DNA of 64,000 nucleotides from an uncultured Bacteroidota bacterium. Lineage in GTDB: Bacteria > Bacteroidota > Bacteroidia > Flavobacteriales_D > Parvicellaceae. Within the stretch, counting starts at the first letter, position 1. Each line of letters opens with the position of its first letter. This document shows, piece after piece, positions 10,665 to 49,914 of this stretch. Below the pieces are notes generated by a model that saw nothing but the letters and a program-made list of their open reading frames with translations, had not been told where the DNA came from and ran no database searches. The position numbers and the translations under genes were made by a program. The stretch is from the NCBI GenBank assembly GCA_902536695.1, contig CACAYQ010000002.1, positions 1-64,000 on the forward strand, in the 5' to 3' direction.

Positions 10665-11423
10665 TTATTCTTCCGATTTTTCAGCAACCACAGCTTCTTT
10701 TTCGGCTTTCTCTTTAGCTAGTTTTTCTTTGTTTTGTTTTCTTTCTCCTAAACCTTCCTTAATAGAGTCACATAAATGACCAACGATTAAATCAATTGAT
10801 TTTGTAGCGTCATCATTAGATGGTATCAAAAAGTCAATGCCTTCAGGACTTGAATTCGTATCTACCATAGCAAAAACGGGGATGTTTAAGTTTTTTGCCT
10901 CTGCTAAAGCAATGTGTTCTTTCTTAACATCAACTATAAAAATAGCAGCAGGTAATCTGTTCATATCAGAAACACTCCCAAATACCTTACCAATTTTTTC
11001 TCTCTGTCTAGTTAATTGTAGTCTTTCTCTCTTTGACATGGTGTCAGCTGTACCATCTTTCATCATTTTATCAATAGAAGACATTTTTTTTACTGTCTTA
11101 CGAGTGGTTTTGAAATTGGTAAGCATACCCCCTGGCCATCTTTCTGTAATGAAAGGCATATTTACTTCAGTTAGCTTAGATGAAATGATTTCCTTAGCTT
11201 GCTTCTTAGTTGCTACAAATAGAATTTTTCTACCTGACTTTGCAATTTGTTTCATTGCATTAGATGCTTCTTCAAGCTTTGCTAATGTCTTATTAAGGTC
11301 GATTACGTGAATACCTTTTTTTTCATCGAAAATGTATGGAGCCATACTTGGGTTCCACTTCCTTTTAAGATGCCCGAAATGCACTCCCGCATCAAGCATA
11401 GTTTCAAAAGTTACTTTTGACAT
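10665..11423 (-). CDS. rpsB: 30S ribosomal protein S2
   Basis: Ribosomal protein uS2. Key segments are MLDAGVHFGHLKRKWNPSM, TKKQAKEIISSKL, RWPGGMLTNFKTTRKTVKK and IPVFAMVDTNSSPEGIDFLI. Length is 252 aa, with a Lys/Glu-rich C-terminal tail that is common in Bacteroidota. It is preceded by a 110-base gap rich in inverted repeats that may be an autoregulatory leader (listed separately), and is followed by tsf. Confidence 0.97.
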   Translation of the reverse strand: MSKVTFETMLDAGVHFGHLKRKWNPSMAPYIFDEKKGIHVIDLNKTLAKLEEASNAMKQIAKSGRKILFVATKKQAKEIISSKLTEVNMPFITERWPGGMLTNFKTTRKTVKKMSSIDKMMKDGTADTMSKRERLQLTRQREKIGKVFGSVSDMNRLPAAIFIVDVKKEHIALAEAKNLNIPVFAMVDTNSSPEGIDFLIPSNDDATKSIDLIVGHLCDSIKEGLGERKQNKEKLAKEKAEKEAVVAEKSEE

Positions 11424-42573: not shown

Positions 42574-42601
42574 GGGCAATTAGCTCAGTTGGTTTAGAGC
42601 G
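42574..42601 (+). repeat. 5' fragment of tRNA-Val(GAC), left copy of direct repeat
   Basis: These 28 bases (starting GGGCAATTAGCTCAGTTGG) equal the acceptor strand and D arm of the tRNA-Val(GAC) at 49502. After GAGCG the sequence turns into an unrelated T-rich stretch. It cannot fold as a tRNA. It also encodes, on the minus strand, the last codons of the SGNH hydrolase. Confidence 0.9.
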
Positions 42602-43377
42602 TTTTTTATTTTTTCAGTTCTAAATATTTCTCTAGCTATGTACTTAGCCCATGTTTGATAAGTGAGCTTTGATGGATGCACTCCATCGCTAAAAAAATCT
42701 TCCTTTTTTTTCTTCAATTGAAACTTTTCTATCCATCCACTTAGGGTGATTTTGTCCCCGAAGTAAAAAACATTTTCGTGATCTGTTGCTACTGCTTTTA
42801 GTTCTTCTCCTAAAATTTCAACTAGATTACCAACAATAAATTTGATAAGGGATGTGAAAGCTGGAAATTCTTTTATCGGGGGCATGTTGCAGAAAATAAT
42901 AACAGTACCAGGAAATTTTGTTTTAATAGACTTGATTAATGAATCAATTTCATTTTTCCATTTTGTAGGTCGATTCAATGTAAAGGCATCATTGCCACCT
43001 AATCCAACAATTATTAAGTCCGCTCTACACTTACTTATTTTGGGGATTAATTTATATTCTACTCTTTTAGCTGTGTAACCACTACGTGCATATACTCTCC
43101 AATCAACGTTAAAATCAAGCAATTTCGAAATCTCTTTGGCAAGAGTTCCCGTGAACCCTTCTTCATGGGTCTCAACTCCAACTCCTGCAATTGTACTTTC
43201 ACCAATGGATATGATTTTTATTGGTCTTTCATTTTTTTCATTGATTTGAAAACTTCCTGCTAATCCTTTTGCTTCAGGAAGTTTGGGTACACTTGCTATA
43301 ATTCTCTTCCCCTGGTAATACATTAAGGGAAGAAGAGGTATAGAAATTAATGCTCCTAATAAAAATCTTAAATTCAT
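42580..43377 (-). CDS. SGNH/GDSL-type hydrolase
   Basis: A 265-residue hydrolase (esterase/lipase-like) with one N-terminal membrane anchor or signal (LRFLLGALISIPLLPLMYYQ). The SGNH blocks are visible: ISIGESTIAGVGV (nucleophile serine, GES in place of GDS), the conserved glycine region SGYTAKRV, VGLGGNDAF (asparagine), and FFSDGVHPSKLTYQTWA (Asp-His pair). Substrate is unknown; related enzymes deacylate sugars or lipids. The stop codon and last six residues lie inside the tRNA-Val(GAC) fragment read antisense, so the C-terminus was probably created by the junction. Confidence 0.85.
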   Translation of the reverse strand: MNLRFLLGALISIPLLPLMYYQGKRIIASVPKLPEAKGLAGSFQINEKNERPIKIISIGESTIAGVGVETHEEGFTGTLAKEISKLLDFNVDWRVYARSGYTAKRVEYKLIPKISKCRADLIIVGLGGNDAFTLNRPTKWKNEIDSLIKSIKTKFPGTVIIFCNMPPIKEFPAFTSLIKFIVGNLVEILGEELKAVATDHENVFYFGDKITLSGWIEKFQLKKKKEDFFSDGVHPSKLTYQTWAKYIAREIFRTEKIKNALNQLS

Positions 43378-43398
43378 TGTCTTTTAATGCTCTACAAC

Positions 43399-43602
43399 TC
43401 AGAAATAGTAATTATTCATTATTGACCGAAGTTCTTTTCCACATTTTATTTCTTCGAGTGATTTTTGAATAATTTCTAATTTACATAAATCTTTTGTAAC
43501 TCTTTCGATTCCTCTTACATAGTTATTTATTGACTTCTCTGATAGGTCAGTATTTAATTCTAACCACTTTAGGAAATTTTGATATTGAGTATTATTCATC
43601 AT
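43399..43602 (-). pseudogene. N-terminal fragment resembling the leading domain of HNH/restriction-type endonucleases
   Basis: A 67-codon ORF starting MMNNTQYQNFLKWLELNTDL and continuing LSEKSINNYVRGIERVTKDL. It has the helical SAM-like opening often found before nuclease domains or in recombinases. It stops after IKCGKELRSIMNNYYF, where longer homologues would continue into a further domain, so it looks truncated. The assignment rests on pattern memory only. It lies seven bases from the dihydrofolate reductase remnant, in a decayed stretch. Confidence 0.4.
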
Positions 43603-43608
43603 TAATAA

Positions 43609-43920
43609 TTATCTTTTATTCCATATTGTATATATGCAGTTATCGCTTAGTTTCTCTTCCAATTTCATTTTATAACTGATTTTTATTTTATCCATTGTTA
43701 TAGGAAAAAATGTATCAATTCCATTTACAGAATCACTAATAAATGTAATATGCAAGGTGTCTGCATACTCAAAAAGGCATTATAAATCATTTCTCCACCA
43801 ATTATAAATACATCTGGAATATTATCTTTTTCTAATGATTGCAAGCAGTTTTCAATAGAGGTATAGCATTCAACATCATTTACTTTGTTTGATGACAGTA
43901 CGATATTTCTTCTCGGGGGG
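43609..43920 (-). pseudogene. Dihydrofolate reductase remnant (C-terminal half, frameshifted)
   Basis: Hand translation of the minus strand gives PPRRNIVLSS, then IPDVFIIGGEMIYNAF, and after a one-base shift EYADTLHITFISDSVNG, IDTFFP and a terminal CIYTIWNKR before TAA. These are the C-terminal blocks of DHFR (the IGG loop and the Tyr/Asp-rich strand). The frameshift sits in a poly-A/poly-T run at 43771-43775, where one base has been lost. The catalytic N-terminal half is absent and the homology starts abruptly near a GGGGGG tract. The fragment cannot make an active enzyme. Confidence 0.8.
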
Positions 43921-44036
43921 AAAAATATTTAAAAACTCCTAAAAAGGGTGAAAGCTAGAGATAGGTATCGAGTGAGTAGCCCGCTTTTAGGTTAGAGAAA
44001 AGTTTTAATTTTAAAGTGAACTAAAACTTAAAAATT

Positions 44037-44318
44037 ATGAAAGACACAATTAAAAATTCAATAACAGGAGCATTTGCAATATTTGGTTTAGTAGCTCTAA
44101 TATCAAGTTCTAATAATGCACCAACATTAATTCACGAAGGTTCTAATATTCCTGAGAGCCATGTATATAGTTTAATAGAATCTGATGGTAGAGCATTTTC
44201 CATAAACGCAAAAACAGGAGAGGTAAAGATGTATGTTAGAACAACAACTAGTAGTGGGGCTACAACACTAGGATTAAAAGAATACAAGCCAGTTCTAAAA
44301 GAATTTGGAGAGAAATAA
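44037..44318 (+). CDS. Small exported or membrane-anchored protein of unknown function
   Basis: A 93-residue ORF with a hydrophobic N-terminal segment (SITGAFAIFGLVALISSS) and a polar mature part (HVYSLIESDGRAFSINAKTG). No family is recognised. The sequence just before the ATG, TAAAACTTAAAAATT, resembles the leader element in front of the minus-strand islet genes. It is the only intact plus-strand gene inside the islet. Confidence 0.6.
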   Translation: MKDTIKNSITGAFAIFGLVALISSSNNAPTLIHEGSNIPESHVYSLIESDGRAFSINAKTGEVKMYVRTTTSSGATTLGLKEYKPVLKEFGEK

Positions 44319-44526
44319 CTTAACATGTTTAGGAGAAAAAAGAGCGAGGACCTTGTGAATTATTAAACACATAATCTGAAAAAAAACCTCCCCCTTTTAT
44401 TTTTCAAATGCGCAACTAAAATATAGTTGACGAATTAAATAGAAATTAAACTGTGATAAAGATGCCTTAGAGATGTTAAAATATCATAGTATTAACGTAA
44501 CACACATACATAGAAAAAAATAGATC

Positions 44527-44883
44527 ATGCCATTTCAAAAAGGTAATAAGCTAGCAAAGGGAAGGCCGAAAGGTTCAAAGAATAAAGCTACAGACATACA
44601 GAAGTTTGAGATTCAAAACATATTCTTCAATCTGGATGAAATGAAAAGAGACTTCGAGATGCTATCCCCAGACAAGAAGTATGACATAAGAATGAAAGCA
44701 ATGAGCTTCTTTTATTCTAGGCCAGCTGTTGAGCTGTAGGTAGATGCAACCCCATGGACTAAGGTTGAATATATCACTGAAATTGGAGAAGATCAGCCTT
44801 CAGACGAAGAAAAGAAACGCATCTATTTTGAAAATGGAGGTGATGGTGTTAACCCTATTGACCTACCCTTATTCATTGATTAA
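44527..44883 (+). pseudogene. Phage-like small protein gene interrupted by an in-frame amber codon
   Basis: The ORF starts MPFQKGNKLAKGRPKGSKNK, the Lys/Gly-rich opening common in Bacteroidota phage/terminase-small-subunit-like (DUF5681-type) proteins. TAG at 44737-44739 ends it after 70 residues. The same frame stays open for 47 more codons (VDATPWTKVEYITEIGEDQ ... PIDLPLFID) to TAA at 44881, and the tail reads like normal protein. One C-to-T change (CAG to TAG) would explain it. Either a recent pseudogene or, less likely, readthrough. Confidence 0.65.
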
Positions 44884-44895
44884 TCCGATTCTTTA

Positions 44896-45498
44896 TTAAT
44901 ATAAACCTCGACCACCACTATTTATTGCTTTCATGAAAACCCTAAAGGCTAGATACCACAATATTAAACTAATTAATAGACTTGCAGCAGCAATAACAAA
45001 TGATTCAAAAAATAAAAAATAGAGCGCTAACCCAAACATAAATACAGAACCAATTAAAGTTACGATTGAAAGTAATACCAAAAGTATTTTGTTTTGTTTG
45101 TTTTTAGTTTTTGACTTTTTTTTGGTGATTTCTTTGTGCTTTAAAATGGGAACTTCAACTAATAAAGATTTATTTATTTTTTCTTGTTGAATAAAATGAG
45201 GCAATTCTTTGTGAGAATACTTAGTTGTTAAAACAGAGGGACCAATTTTATCTTTTGATGCTAAGAAATCTTGGTTATTAGTAACTGCAGTTATACTGGC
45301 TTCAACTTCAGATAGATTTTTAGCAGAACTATTTTTTGAAATATTAAGAGTGCTGTATTGCTTTTGACTAAAATCATATCGTGACGCTATATTGTTTATA
45401 ACCCCATTGTGAGCGATTTTTCTAACGGACAATATTTTTTTTGAGCTGCAACTTATAGTCAAAACAGCTAGAAGCATAAATACTAATAACCTTTTCAT
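44896..45498 (-). CDS. Lipoprotein with two C-terminal membrane helices, unknown function
   Basis: A 200-residue protein with lipoprotein signal MKRLLVFMLLAVLTISCSS (Cys17). A polar middle part is followed by a very basic stretch (KKKSKTKNKQNK) and two hydrophobic segments (ILLVLLSIVTLIGSVFMFGL, AASLLISLILWYLAFRVF). No family is recognised. A predicted outer-membrane lipoprotein with helical membrane segments is odd; it may stay in the inner membrane. The first codons match those of the genes at 46118 and 48702 closely at the DNA level, while the upstream leader element is weaker than theirs. Confidence 0.7.
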   Translation of the reverse strand: MKRLLVFMLLAVLTISCSSKKILSVRKIAHNGVINNIASRYDFSQKQYSTLNISKNSSAKNLSEVEASITAVTNNQDFLASKDKIGPSVLTTKYSHKELPHFIQQEKINKSLLVEVPILKHKEITKKKSKTKNKQNKILLVLLSIVTLIGSVFMFGLALYFLFFESFVIAAASLLISLILWYLAFRVFMKAINSGGRGLY

Positions 45499-45686
45499 CT
45501 TGTGGGTTTAAATATTTTAATAAAATTAAGTTACTTCTATTTATAATAAATGGGATTTTAATTAAAAAAAGGATAAGTTTTTAATCAATAATTTTATTTA
45601 ACTATCTGTTTTACATTGGTTTAAGTAAGTGTTTACGGATTACTTAAGAAAAGTATTTATTGGGATTGATTGGTGAGGATTAGTAT

Positions 45687-46118
45687 TTAGGGTACTGTAA
45701 AATCAAACCTAATTCGATTTACATTATGATAATTAGTAAAAGATCTATTCTCTTGTAGATTTCCGTCTACAAAAAATCCAATAGCAATTTCAAAGTCACA
45801 TTGTAGTCTATCAGGACTAGATACAGAATCACATTCTGCTGTCAACATTAAGGAAATATTTTCACCTTTATCTTCTCTTTCAGTAGTTGTTTGAAAGCTA
45901 GAACCTTCAGGAATAGGTCCTGGAATGCCCCCAAAAGGGTCAATTCCAAAATAACGATTCCCCATAAGGGCATTATATCTATAATAATCATCACTATCGC
46001 AGCTAAACCAATTAACATCAGCATTAGAAACAAATACATATTCAAAATGCACGTTTCTTTCTTTACTACAACTCCCCAAAAGAACCACAGCAAATACAAA
46101 TACTAATAATTTTTTCAT
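45687..46118 (-). CDS. Lipoprotein of unknown function
   Basis: A 143-residue protein with lipobox LLGSC (Cys17) after MKKLLVFVFAVVLLGSC. The mature part is rich in Asp, Ser and aromatic residues (NWFSCDSDDYYRYNALMG) and looks like a small beta domain (DFEIAIGFFVDGNL). No family is recognised. The 20-nt leader element lies six bases upstream of the start. The 188-base gap on its downstream side shows nothing recognisable. Confidence 0.7.
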   Translation of the reverse strand: MKKLLVFVFAVVLLGSCSKERNVHFEYVFVSNADVNWFSCDSDDYYRYNALMGNRYFGIDPFGGIPGPIPEGSSFQTTTEREDKGENISLMLTAECDSVSSPDRLQCDFEIAIGFFVDGNLQENRSFTNYHNVNRIRFDFTVP

Positions 46119-46124
46119 CTTTTA

Positions 46125-46144
46125 AAGTTTTGATACTAATTTAA
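46125..46144 (-). repeat. Conserved leader element, copy 1
   Basis: The minus strand reads TTAAATTAGTATCAAAACTT, six bases before the ATG of the 143-aa lipoprotein. It is identical to copies 3 and 4. No matching copy was noticed outside the islet. Confidence 0.75.
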
Positions 46145-46238
46145 GAAAAGTATATTATGCTATTTGGTTATATAGTATTCTCTTACCAAGACCCTAAATA
46201 GTAAAGTGTTTTATTTTGATTATAAATTACAACAGTAT

Positions 46239-47369
46239 TTAATTTATTGAGTTGTAAACTGCTTGTCTAAATTGCTTTTGAATCTCAAATGAAAATTCTC
46301 TTGCTCTTGTAAGAAATAAACCAAACATTTTTTTTTCAGAATCGATCCAAAAATGCGTATTATGATAACCAGACCACCCATATATTCCTTTAGTGGAATT
46401 TGTTCCGTCTAATTTAGGATTGTCAAGAACAAATAATGAAAACCCATAATTAAATGGATCACCTTCTTTTTCTGTGTATGATTTTACCATAATGTTTAAA
46501 CTCTCTTTTGAAATTAATTGCTCATTATTAAATACCCCATCATTTACCAGCATTCTACAGAAGTTAGAATAGTCATCTAACGTTGATACAAGTCCTTCTC
46601 CTCCAAAATATGCTTTGTTATCTATATCGTAAGTTAATTGGTCTAAATTGTTAGTATAACCTTTCAGTGAAGAATTATTTATGAACAAGGGTTGAAACCT
46701 CTTTCTTTCTTCTTTTGTTAAATAGAACTTTGTATCGTACATCTCTAAAGGGTCAAAAATTTCTTGCTTTAAAAAATCATAAAAACTTTTTTTGGTCACG
46801 ACCTCAACTACTCTTCCTAAAATAGCCATATTTATCCCATATAAATACTTTGATCCAGGTTCAAACTCAACTGGGTGATTTGCAACATCAGAAGCAAAAT
46901 CTTTTAAATTATTATATTTAATTGTACTTGTAAAATAATGAGGATTTTCATAATATTTATATCCAGATCTATGTGTCATCAAGTGAAATAACGTTATTTC
47001 GTTTTTACATTTGTAGATTCCATTTTCATTTTTACATTTAAGATTTTTAAATTCTGGGATGTATTTTGATAGTTTGTCTTCAAAATTAATTAATCCTCTT
47101 TCCTTTAAAATCATCATACCAACGATCGTAATTGGCTTAGACATTGACCATATGGGAAAAATTGAGTTATCATAAATTGGTTTTGAATTTTTATGCATTG
47201 AATTTTCAATGTTTTTAAAAATTATATTTCCGTCTTTATAAACCATTGCAACATTGCTAGATGTTACTTCGTTTTTTATAAGATTTTTTTGAAAATCGAT
47301 AACTTTTTCAAACTGAGCAGTAAGGAAATTAAGTGATAAAACACAAATTGATGTTATTATAATCTTCAT
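46239..47369 (-). CDS. Exported serine hydrolase, beta-lactamase (class C-like) family
   Basis: A 376-residue protein with signal peptide IITSICVLSLNFLTAQ. PIWSMSKPITIVGMMIL holds the SxxK nucleophile motif (about residue 75), and KYLYGINMAILGRVVEVV the Tyr-x-Asn motif (about residue 170). GYSGYHNTHFWID-like (here GWSGYHNTHFWID) replaces the KTG/HxG block. The family includes esterases, D-aminopeptidases and penicillin-binding enzymes; the sequence does not prove beta-lactamase activity. The leader element lies five bases before its start. Confidence 0.85.
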   Translation of the reverse strand: MKIIITSICVLSLNFLTAQFEKVIDFQKNLIKNEVTSSNVAMVYKDGNIIFKNIENSMHKNSKPIYDNSIFPIWSMSKPITIVGMMILKERGLINFEDKLSKYIPEFKNLKCKNENGIYKCKNEITLFHLMTHRSGYKYYENPHYFTSTIKYNNLKDFASDVANHPVEFEPGSKYLYGINMAILGRVVEVVTKKSFYDFLKQEIFDPLEMYDTKFYLTKEERKRFQPLFINNSSLKGYTNNLDQLTYDIDNKAYFGGEGLVSTLDDYSNFCRMLVNDGVFNNEQLISKESLNIMVKSYTEKEGDPFNYGFSLFVLDNPKLDGTNSTKGIYGWSGYHNTHFWIDSEKKMFGLFLTRAREFSFEIQKQFRQAVYNSIN

Positions 47370-47374
47370 TTTAT

Positions 47375-47394
47375 AAGTTTTGATTCTAATTTAA
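47375..47394 (-). repeat. Conserved leader element, copy 2
   Basis: The minus strand reads TTAAATTAGAATCAAAACTT, one mismatch to the other copies, five bases before the serine hydrolase ATG. Confidence 0.75.
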
Positions 47395-47478
47395 GAAAAC
47401 AATGAAAATACAGCACGTCTACAGTACAAATACAAAAGGATTAGCAACTAATAAATTAGGAAAAAATGGCTTGACTAC

Positions 47479-48702
47479 CTAAAAACAGTCTGCCGGGAAA
47501 TTGCAGTTAGTTGAGAAGGAAAGATTAGAATTTTGAAAAATTGAAGACCAATTCTGATTGGCGTAACTCACATCGTCAACTTCTACGCAATTTAAATTTG
47601 GATAATATGCGCTGCTGTAACCAAAAATATTTAGATTTTGATTGTTACCATTTTTTAAGTTTAAGCAAGTTAAATCGAGGTAAATATTTAGCAGTGTCAA
47701 ATTAGAATTGTTGCTTAAATTCAAACCTCTTTGATCAATAGAACTTAATGATAAAGTTTCAAGATGGGTAAAGTCTGTAAAGTCAATTTCTGAAAAATGA
47801 AGATTACGTAAATTAATGTGCTTCAAATTAATGCAATCTGTTATTTTTAATTCAGTAGGAGAAGTCTGATCCCAGGGAGCATTTTGACTATACCCTATTA
47901 ATTGGAGATTTTCAAGGCTGTTACACCCACCCAAGTTTAGGTATTTTAAATAAGAATCCTCAGTATTTTCAATTTCTTTGATTTTTAAATAGGAAAGATT
48001 GTTGTAATTTGATAAATCAAGACTGTCAAATCCTAAAGCTCCAACTATTATTGTAGATAGGTTTTGATTAAATTTAATTGAGTCGTATTCAAAATTATTT
48101 TCGCAATTAATGAATCTTATTTGATTATTTTTTGACAAATTGATATATGAAAGATTGTTGCTTTTACAATAAAGACTGTCTAATGAACTAAAACCGTCAA
48201 TCCCTGTTAAATCATAAATTCCCTTTTGATCTAAATTTAGCACGAGAACATTTTTTACATTATCATATTCAAGTGTGCTATCAATTACATCGTCATAGCC
48301 TAAATCAATTAAAGCTTGTTCAAAATTTTCATCTGGAATAATAACTACACTTAATGTCTGGAAACTAATTTCTTCTCCGTAACCGGTTCCATTATCATTT
48401 GTAGCATATGCTCTCGCATAGTATGTTGTATTATAGTTTAGGTCATTTAAAGTGCTTATGAAATTTCCATCTACTGAGTTACTCTGAGAAGTATTATCGT
48501 TTAAAGTTGGGGTTCCTGTTGTACTCCAGCAGATTCCTTTGGAAATTATTTCACTTCCACCGTTAGAAATTATTTCACCACCCGAATTTGCAGAGATCCC
48601 AGTTATATTGGAAATAGGAATAGTATTAATTTCAGGAAGTTTATTTTTAGAACAACTACCAAACACACCAACAATAAACATAAATACTAATATCCTTTTC
48701 AT
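47479..48702 (-). CDS. Lipoprotein with fibronectin-III-like domain and leucine-rich repeats
   Basis: A 407-residue protein with lipobox signal MKRILVFMFIVGVFGSC. Residues 25-115 form the FN3-like module frequent in Bacteroidota surface proteins (SNGGSEIISKGICWSTTGTP, YYARAYATNDNGTGYGEEIS). From about 125 onward there are irregular leucine-rich repeats of the internalin-like type (LTGIDGFSSLDSLYCKSNNL, LTLLNIYLDLTCLNL). There is no T9SS sorting domain, so export is by the lipoprotein route. A binding role at the surface is inferred. Its leader element lies within the 28-base gap to the upstream gene. Confidence 0.8.
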   Translation of the reverse strand: MKRILVFMFIVGVFGSCSKNKLPEINTIPISNITGISANSGGEIISNGGSEIISKGICWSTTGTPTLNDNTSQSNSVDGNFISTLNDLNYNTTYYARAYATNDNGTGYGEEISFQTLSVVIIPDENFEQALIDLGYDDVIDSTLEYDNVKNVLVLNLDQKGIYDLTGIDGFSSLDSLYCKSNNLSYINLSKNNQIRFINCENNFEYDSIKFNQNLSTIIVGALGFDSLDLSNYNNLSYLKIKEIENTEDSYLKYLNLGGCNSLENLQLIGYSQNAPWDQTSPTELKITDCINLKHINLRNLHFSEIDFTDFTHLETLSLSSIDQRGLNLSNNSNLTLLNIYLDLTCLNLKNGNNQNLNIFGYSSAYYPNLNCVEVDDVSYANQNWSSIFQNSNLSFSTNCNFPADCF

Positions 48703-48707
48703 CTTTT

Positions 48708-48727
48708 AAGTTTTGATACTAATTTAA
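48708..48727 (-). repeat. Conserved leader element, copy 3
   Basis: The minus strand reads TTAAATTAGTATCAAAACTT, five bases before the ATG of the LRR lipoprotein. It fills most of the 28-base gap to the previous stop codon. Confidence 0.75.
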
Positions 48728-48730
48728 GAG

Positions 48731-49321
48731 TTACTCAAAAGTGTATGTTTTAGTTTTCTTATCATAGCTTTTGTAGTTCTTTTCAAATTTAAGTTTTGAA
48801 AAACTTGCTAAATCAATAATGAAACCTGTTAATGATATAGCTGTACCCCCATATACAAATAATCTTGGATCAGAATCAGCTGCTGTTCCAAGAGTTGAAA
48901 CAACCACTCCTAAAATTGACATCAATCTTCCTGTAAGTTGTAGTTTTCTGAACTTTGATAAGTTATATTGGGTGTAATTTATGTTATCCTCCATAAGAGA
49001 AAAATTACTGCTTGAACTTAATAAGTAGTTTTTAAAATCATTTGAAGTTTTATTTATTAAAATTTGGTTTCTATCAATAATAAAATGACCATTATTAAGC
49101 TTCTTTGATTTGTAGGTAGTTGATTTACCATTTTGATTTTTGAATATTATTTGATTGTTCTGCGACTCAAGAGGAATAAATGATATTTGTTTTGCATTAA
49201 TAGAAACAATATTACCTTTTGCAACCCACTCTTCAGATTTAACAAGAGAAATACTTTCATTTTGTGCATTTACATAGAAACTAAACGCAAATATTAATAA
49301 AGGAAAAAATAAATGTCTCAT
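48731..49321 (-). CDS. Exported protein of unknown function
   Basis: A 196-residue protein with a Sec signal peptide (LFFPLLIFAFSFYVNAQ). The mature part begins with a beta-rich stretch (WVAKGNIVSINAKQISFIPL), and two hydrophobic segments near residues 130-175 (LMSILGVVVSTLGTAAD, FVYGGTAISLTGFIIDLASF) may insert in a membrane. No family is recognised. It is the first minus-strand gene of the islet cluster and lies 180 bases from tRNA-Val(GAC). The leader element sits five bases upstream. Confidence 0.7.
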   Translation of the reverse strand: MRHLFFPLLIFAFSFYVNAQNESISLVKSEEWVAKGNIVSINAKQISFIPLESQNNQIIFKNQNGKSTTYKSKKLNNGHFIIDRNQILINKTSNDFKNYLLSSSSNFSLMEDNINYTQYNLSKFRKLQLTGRLMSILGVVVSTLGTAADSDPRLFVYGGTAISLTGFIIDLASFSKLKFEKNYKSYDKKTKTYTFE

Positions 49322-49326
49322 AACTT

Positions 49327-49346
49327 AAGTTTTGATACTAATTTAA
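49327..49346 (-). repeat. Conserved leader element, copy 4
   Basis: The minus strand reads TTAAATTAGTATCAAAACTT, five bases before the ATG of the 196-aa exported protein. Confidence 0.75.
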
Positions 49347-49353
49347 AAAATCA

Positions 49354-49374
49354 AAGTGTAAAGTGTAAAGTGTA
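49354..49374. repeat. Three tandem copies of AAGTGTA
   Basis: Three exact 7-base units lie between leader copy 4 and tRNA-Val(GAC). It is a short simple repeat of unknown meaning. Confidence 0.7.
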
Positions 49375-49501
49375 ATTTGACTTTTAGTGTTACATTTGAA
49401 GTATAAAGACACTAAAAAAAGCATAAGATGTGCAAACATTGTGCAAATAATGTTTTTACTAAGTTTAAAGTTATCACGTAACTCACTGATAATCAATACT
49501 T

Positions 49502-49576
49502 GGGCAATTAGCTCAGTTGGTTTAGAGCGCTTGCTTGACAGGCAAGAGGTCACTGGTTCGAATCCAGTATTGCCCA
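49502..49576 (+). tRNA. tRNA-Val (anticodon GAC), CCA not encoded
   Basis: The cloverleaf is complete: acceptor GGGCAAT/ATTGCCC, anticodon arm CTTGC-TTGACAG-GCAAG (anticodon GAC, valine), T arm CTGGTTCGAATCCAG, discriminator A. The gene is followed by CTCG, so CCA must be added by the nucleotidyltransferase, unlike tRNA-Val(TAC). No TAnnTTTG box is obvious in the 60 bases upstream. Its first 28 bases are duplicated at 42574. Confidence 0.95.
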
Positions 49577-49618
49577 CTCGTAATAAATAAGGCTATTTTA
49601 AACGAAAGTCTATTTTTG

Positions 49619-49640
49619 GTCTCACCAAAGTCTCACCAAA
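49619..49640. repeat. Two tandem copies of GTCTCACCAAA
   Basis: Two exact 11-base units lie 43 bases after the tRNA-Val(GAC). Further on, GCAAATACGCTGCA and TGCAGTATCGAAGTTTGC can pair as an imperfect hairpin. Such direct and inverted repeats beside a tRNA could be old recombinase arm or core sites; this is speculative. Confidence 0.4.
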
Positions 49641-49758
49641 TTGCAAGAATTTTACTGTTTTTAGCTGTTTTCGCAAATACGCTGCACTCCCCTTGCAGTA
49701 TCGAAGTTTGCAGTCATTCGTCTTTTTTCTAAACTCATAGTTCACTAAAATTAAAACT

Positions 49759-49914
49759 ATGAAACAGAAAGTTAAAATGGCTTCGAATGAAAGTTTTGCT
49801 CATATAACAGGCACTATAAAGGAAATGATTGAAAACGGTGCAGAAATAGTTCAACTTGTAAATGCAGGGCAAAGTTTAAGTTATCCTGACTGTGTAATTA
49901 TAAATAAAAAATAA
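49759..49914 (+). CDS. Small protein, 51 aa, unknown function
   Basis: This ORF is too short for the track. It reads MKQKVKMASNESFAHITGTI, then KEMIENGAEIVQLVNAGQSL, and ends in VIINKK. The mix of helix and strand with normal codon use makes it look real. It is followed at once by a hairpin terminator. No family is recognised; position next to the tRNA/islet border suggests it may belong to the same accessory region. Confidence 0.5.
   Translation: MKQKVKMASNESFAHITGTIKEMIENGAEIVQLVNAGQSLSYPDCVIINKK

Follow-up and report, generated by a model that had tools for sequence, protein, structure and literature searches.

The 20-nt sequence TTAAATTAGTATCAAAACTT, which stands before four genes of a 64-kb window (the whole stretch of DNA analysed, 64,000 nucleotides), is read here with moderate confidence as the start-side half of a standard junction between exchanged gene cassettes in tRNA-anchored islands. 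The cassettes, mostly single accessory genes, are situated at tRNA genes, in integrase-bearing islands or their remnants, and occur in two sister genera of marine Flavobacteriales. The full junction consists, in order, of a stop-side tail, a linker, and, on the start side, a leader whose end lies 5-6 nt ahead of the ATG. As a 5' UTR and translation start, the leader would let a captured gene be expressed, and a ready-made lipoprotein signal peptide may sometimes be supplied along with it. Genes would be swapped by recombination at the common junctions, either by some recombinase or by ordinary homologous recombination, for which the ~60 bp of common junction would in principle be sufficient; no junction-specific recombinase was identified.

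Integrons are the main setting from which gene cassettes with a standard junction are known, and here an array-like arrangement, with conserved adaptors on the start and stop sides, occurs without an integron integrase in uncultured marine bacteria. Movement of the cassettes as units, if it takes place, would account for the continued exchange of single surface-protein genes at the tRNA islands of small marine genomes, and metagenomes and phages could then be searched for such genes by means of the two adaptors.

The window islet and its leader copies

A pattern search of the window returned four copies of the leader, all on the minus strand. Three are exact, at 49327..49346 (5 nt before the ATG at 49321), 48708..48727 (5 nt before the ATG at 48702), and 46125..46144 (6 nt before the ATG at 46118), and one, at 47375..47394 (5 nt before the ATG at 47369), has a single mismatch; even when three mismatches are allowed, the window has no fifth copy. 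The sequence-only reading had placed the 20-mer 5 or 6 bases ahead of four successive start codons, which is borne out by gaps of 6, 5, 5, and 5, and the 28-base intergenic gap that it described around one copy (the second) is real, at 48703-48730. The genes behind the leaders, all on the minus strand, encode a 196-aa protein with an N-terminal signal sequence and without a Pfam match (48731..49321), a 407-aa LRR-repeat lipoprotein (47479..48702, PF23952), a 376-aa serine hydrolase of the beta-lactamase fold (46239..47369, PF00144), and a 143-aa lipoprotein without a Pfam match (45687..46118). Past the last of them lies the upstream half of a junction, CCTCACCAATCAATCCCAATAAATACTTTTCTTAA (45644..45678, minus strand), with no leader after it, and further on a lipoprotein gene that has the common ACAAGATGAAAAGGTTATTAGTATTT start and lacks the 20-mer (44896..45498, minus strand). 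No complete tail was found within the window islet.

The islet spans 42576-49502, from a 28-bp repeat of the tRNA-Val(gac) 5' end (42576..42603, plus strand) to tRNA-Val(gac) itself (49502..49577, plus strand). A 67-aa ORF within it (43399..43602, minus strand) resembles the N-terminal domain of tyrosine integrases (PF02899, E=0.0023, below the Pfam cut-off) and is a probable integrase remnant. The sequence preceding the plus-strand gene at 44037 had been taken for a partial match to the 20-mer; it is indeed a related leader, but of a distinct, third type (44010..44036, plus strand), and stands ahead of a 93-aa ORF (44037-44318) whose homologues follow a tail at two loci of another genome (L197 and L198 in G017). 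The same third type precedes the ORF at 49759 (49720..49758, plus strand).

Some further features of the islet were noted in passing. The frames of 43609-43920 resemble, by eye, a decayed dihydrofolate reductase gene, and a GDSL-type lipase gene (42580-43377) at the islet edge reaches the 28-bp tRNA repeat. A small protein with the start MPFxKGxKLAxGRPKGSxNK is encoded at 44527-44739, and a similar one in the tRNA-Gln island of G023 (L146:1890-2192); the only matches of these proteins, to phage families without a known function, are weak.

Leaders and tail in two sister genera

The earlier statement that no copy lies outside the islet holds for the window but not for the genome: the host assembly (G000), which is 1.7 Mb in size and 62% complete, contains 17 matches to the 20-mer at up to three mismatches. 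One of these is a duplicated contig end (C35) and the match on C3 is probably due to chance, and about 15 genuine copies stand on seven contigs of this incomplete genome, namely C2 (the window), C5, C39, C58, C61, and, with single copies, C33 and C35. The ends of C35 (1-3000 and 14350-17354, L022) repeat each other in inverted orientation; this is probably an assembly artefact, and they were counted once. Many of the copies are part of a longer repeat that extends about 50 bp upstream and, on the other side, into the DNA of a lipoprotein signal peptide, and the proteins behind this repeat differ over their remainder. Its upstream part is missing from several first copies that adjoin a tRNA.

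Beyond the host, copies were found in three relatives, G002 (Crocinitomicaceae RS467), G003 (a Tara bin), and G023. In host and relatives, the copies lie largely beside tRNA genes or in tRNA-borne islands, a recurrence at many tRNA islands that the sequence-only reading had missed. Arrays of copies in the same orientation occur in all four genomes, and within an array every copy has one orientation. When 299 genomes of the order were searched with a sequence model of the leader (R1), strong matches were confined to these four, with one further marginal match in G130 (E 9e-5). Among 27 exact-pattern stretches in GTDB genomes, those with a leader context belong to three relatives only; the others look unrelated, and many of them are one conserved gene start in Bacilli. 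A wide distribution of the 20-mer is thus ruled out by the model search and the GTDB contexts. The sole viral match to the pattern (L114) has no leader context.

The tie of the leader to the start codon is close. An ATG follows after 5-6 nt in 17 of the 20 leader copies from the host genus and its relatives (the exceptions are at L020:6453, L021:2159, and L021:4763), whereas the TAnnTTTG box was found in none of the 20 within ~75 nt upstream. The earlier claim of a spacing fixed to the start codon and not to such a box is supported, and a canonical Bacteroidota housekeeping promoter is rejected. In Flavobacterium johnsoniae, the measured start preferences are A at -3 and an A-rich stretch from -14 to -11 (PMC6847099). 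The leader fits this Kozak-like context of the Bacteroidota, with A at -3 in 16 and A at -12 in 17 of 18 copies, but its T at -6 and C at -13 depart from the preferred bases. From the spacing, the two A positions, the missing TAnnTTTG box, and these published start rules, we infer that the leader acts as a translation-start adaptor. The proposal of a translational rather than a promoter element stands in so far as these features go, although the element may instead be a variant promoter. Rfam searches of nine array loci gave only tRNAs, and a known structured RNA was rejected on that basis.

In the sister genus (g6), the arrays have a leader of their own, TTACTTTAATGGTTTAAAACTTATGAA, typically 5 nt before an ATG. 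Among 32 copies, the ATG of an ORF with 40 or more codons lies 5-6 nt downstream in 17 cases and 25-27 nt downstream in two; the remaining 13 are without such an ORF. Common to both genera, and nearly identical in them, is a 23-bp tail, CCTCCCTTTGCTTTCTTAACTAA, which follows many array genes, sometimes right at the stop codon. The 20-mer is thus the leader half in the form that belongs to the host genus. In g6, the complete junction has the sequence CCTCCCTTTGCTTTCTTAACTAA-GTCAACTTTTTCTTACTTTAATGGTTTAAAACTTATGAA-ATG, and its conserved length is about 60 nt. The sequence-only reading, which took the 20-mer for a start-codon element, was right about the tie to the start and missed this other, stop-side half.

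With three mismatches allowed, 12 of the 39 genomes of the family have the tail. All 12 belong to the two sister genera and none to the seven further genera that were searched, and the reversed tail pattern, used as a control, had no match in the 39 genomes. For 10-11 of 54-55 tails, the first base lies exactly at the end of a stop codon (ORFs of at least 40 codons), compared with 0.4% of random positions, and together with the flanking CTAA the tail provides a stop in each of the three frames. Of 55 tails, 24 have no ORF of this minimum length ending nearby. The leaders rarely cross between the genera: the host type occurs once in G023 (L036:3171) and the g6 type once in G000 (L207). Many arrays (L192, L195, L196, L199, L203, L208, and L209) reach or approach contig ends, as is expected if repeated junctions break assemblies, so that all copy numbers, most of them from incomplete MAGs, are lower bounds.

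The fetched stretch includes a tRNA gene (Val, Leu, Asn, Arg, Gln, or Ala) in about half of ~40 loci; by a rough estimate, a random position would have one within 2 kb in fewer than 10% of cases. Tyrosine integrases were found upstream of the arrays at L018, L036, and L146, and the window islet has only the weak fragment described above. L018 also encodes an excisionase-like protein and carries a tRNA-Leu end repeat; this locus and the window, with its tRNA-Val repeat, are the two that were checked for such repeats. Directly after tRNA-Val(gac), G002 and G003 also have an array, with other genes. Where measured, the islands are ~7-10 kb long. Short direct repeats just downstream of tRNAs, e.g., TTGTGCCAAACTTTGTGCCAA, were observed at 49620-49650 of the window and at L018:1585-1612 and 11144-11165; they differ between tRNAs and, judged from their sequence, look like integrase arm-binding sites.

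Movement of single genes and competing explanations

The 55 ORFs flanked by the elements fall into 41 families. Their products include lipoproteins, Por secretion tail proteins, a serine hydrolase, nucleases, a START-like protein, CIA30, and many unknowns. The expectation that the leader always precedes exported proteins fails with the START-like protein (L021:1725-2150) and a small, soluble-looking protein (L020:6131-6418), and the leader spacing is altered before both. Genes with many internal direct repeats of ~63 bp, of the leucine-rich type, were seen in arrays of G021 and G023 (L187, L188, and L036:6241-6718).

Some array genes have clearly moved between the genera, in the manner of interchangeable cassettes. 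Between G000 and either G016 or G015, identity reaches 90.8% in one cassette and 91.5% in another, compared with 71-77% in core stretches of the two genera. For the first of these cassettes, the similarity stops inside the tail, and each genome continues with its own genus's linker. At one locus, G018 has ~2.3 kb of genes and G024 a bare tail; at the tRNA-Arg(tct) locus, G000 has a cassette and G002 and G003 have none. On a 107-kb viral contig (IMGVR_UViG_3300028284_000003), one tail borders a methyltransferase-like gene and immediately adjoins the stop codon of another gene; no homologue of the methyltransferase-like gene was found in the fetched arrays. The same contig encodes, at L224:5163-6716, a protein that reads like phosphoenolpyruvate carboxykinase, which is unusual in phage. 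Of the points at which similarity between loci ends, 12.5% lie no more than 25 bp from an element, compared with 2.7% of random positions; the 12.5% is diluted by repeats inside proteins, and the locus pairs are not independent. The proposed exchange at the junctions is based on these signs of mobility. No sharp, uniform crossover point is seen at the tail-leader junction, and the similarity declines little by little in either direction from the leader.

More specifically, the arrays may reflect a non-integron gene-capture system, an idea that we put forward tentatively, in which a recombinase would recognise the tail and/or the leader and move single genes as cassettes. Each cassette would thereby gain a start (5' UTR, ATG, and sometimes a signal peptide) and a three-frame stop, and in marine flavobacteria it would travel among tRNA islands, among genera, and to or from phages. 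The tail-leader junction was not found in phage and plasmid records.

Clearly less likely than the cassette reading, in our judgement, is that the two elements do no more than direct the expression (leader as promoter or 5' UTR, tail as 3' UTR) of co-regulated island genes that were spread by duplication, with no role in exchange. The fixed start-codon spacing is in keeping with this, as are the difference of the leader between genera, which a regulatory element might show, and the lipoprotein signal peptide start that is often common. However, the genes belong to 41 unrelated families and lack a canonical promoter box, single genes have moved between genera with the similarity ending inside the tail, a bare tail is retained at an otherwise empty locus, and in a phage contig an inserted gene is bordered by a tail. 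It is improbable that the flanks are the ends of a non-autonomous transposon without inverted repeats (e.g., of the IS200/IS605 or IS91 type) whose passenger genes are moved in trans. Conserved 5' and 3' ends around unrelated cargo and the insertion in the phage contig would fit such an element, but the units stand head to tail in tRNA-island arrays and are not scattered, and no transposase was noticed among the listed array ORFs, inspected without a profile search.

An integron cassette array, or a cluster of attC sites without an integrase, would equally present tandem, same-orientation, single-gene cassettes with a conserved junction of ~60 nt between them. It is nevertheless very improbable here and was rejected on two grounds. 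None of the 39 family genomes, most of them incomplete, has an integron integrase (TIGR02249) above the curated cut-off, and weaker matches to this profile in the family are of a kind also seen in 13 of 14 control genomes. Furthermore, 29 junctions fold no better than shuffled sequence, with mean z values for an attC-like fold of -0.24 (top strand) and -0.39 (bottom strand) against mononucleotide shuffles. Chance recurrence of an A+T-rich word, for which the 34% G+C of the DNA might speak, can be practically dismissed, as shuffles of the window gave a mean of 0.03 copies against the four seen (0 of 100 reached four), reversed-pattern controls gave 0-1 matches, and the tail was not found in 1.1 Mb of shuffled sequence.

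Relation to known systems

Literature searches returned no published description of such leader and tail adaptors. The arrays resemble those of integrons (IntI and attC) in their tandem, same-strand, mostly single-gene cassettes of unrelated function and in the conserved junction between stop and start codons. In contrast to integrons, they lie in tRNA islands, showed neither an integrase nor an attC-like fold, and have a junction that would supply a fixed translation-start context and sometimes a signal peptide start.

In Borrelia, an 'upstream homology box' provides one upstream sequence and signal-peptide start that are common to different lipoprotein genes. The likeness lies in the shared upstream sequence and signal-peptide start; the genes described here, however, are unrelated, some are not exported, and they have a common downstream tail and reside in tRNA islands.

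Additive flexible islands anchored at tRNA genes have been described in marine Actinomarinales (PMC7771536) and Methylophilaceae (PMC10872708). Like the arrays, these are small cassettes beside tRNA genes that vary among close relatives and are exchanged between genera. The repeats named in those two studies are tRNA fragments, and we found in them no account of a leader and tail for each gene. Tycheposons, tRNA-integrating cargo elements as summarised in PMC10872708, share with the arrays the tRNA location, a tyrosine recombinase, and accessory cargo, a general resemblance only; the islands found here differ in their length of ~7-10 kb where measured and in their per-gene adaptors.
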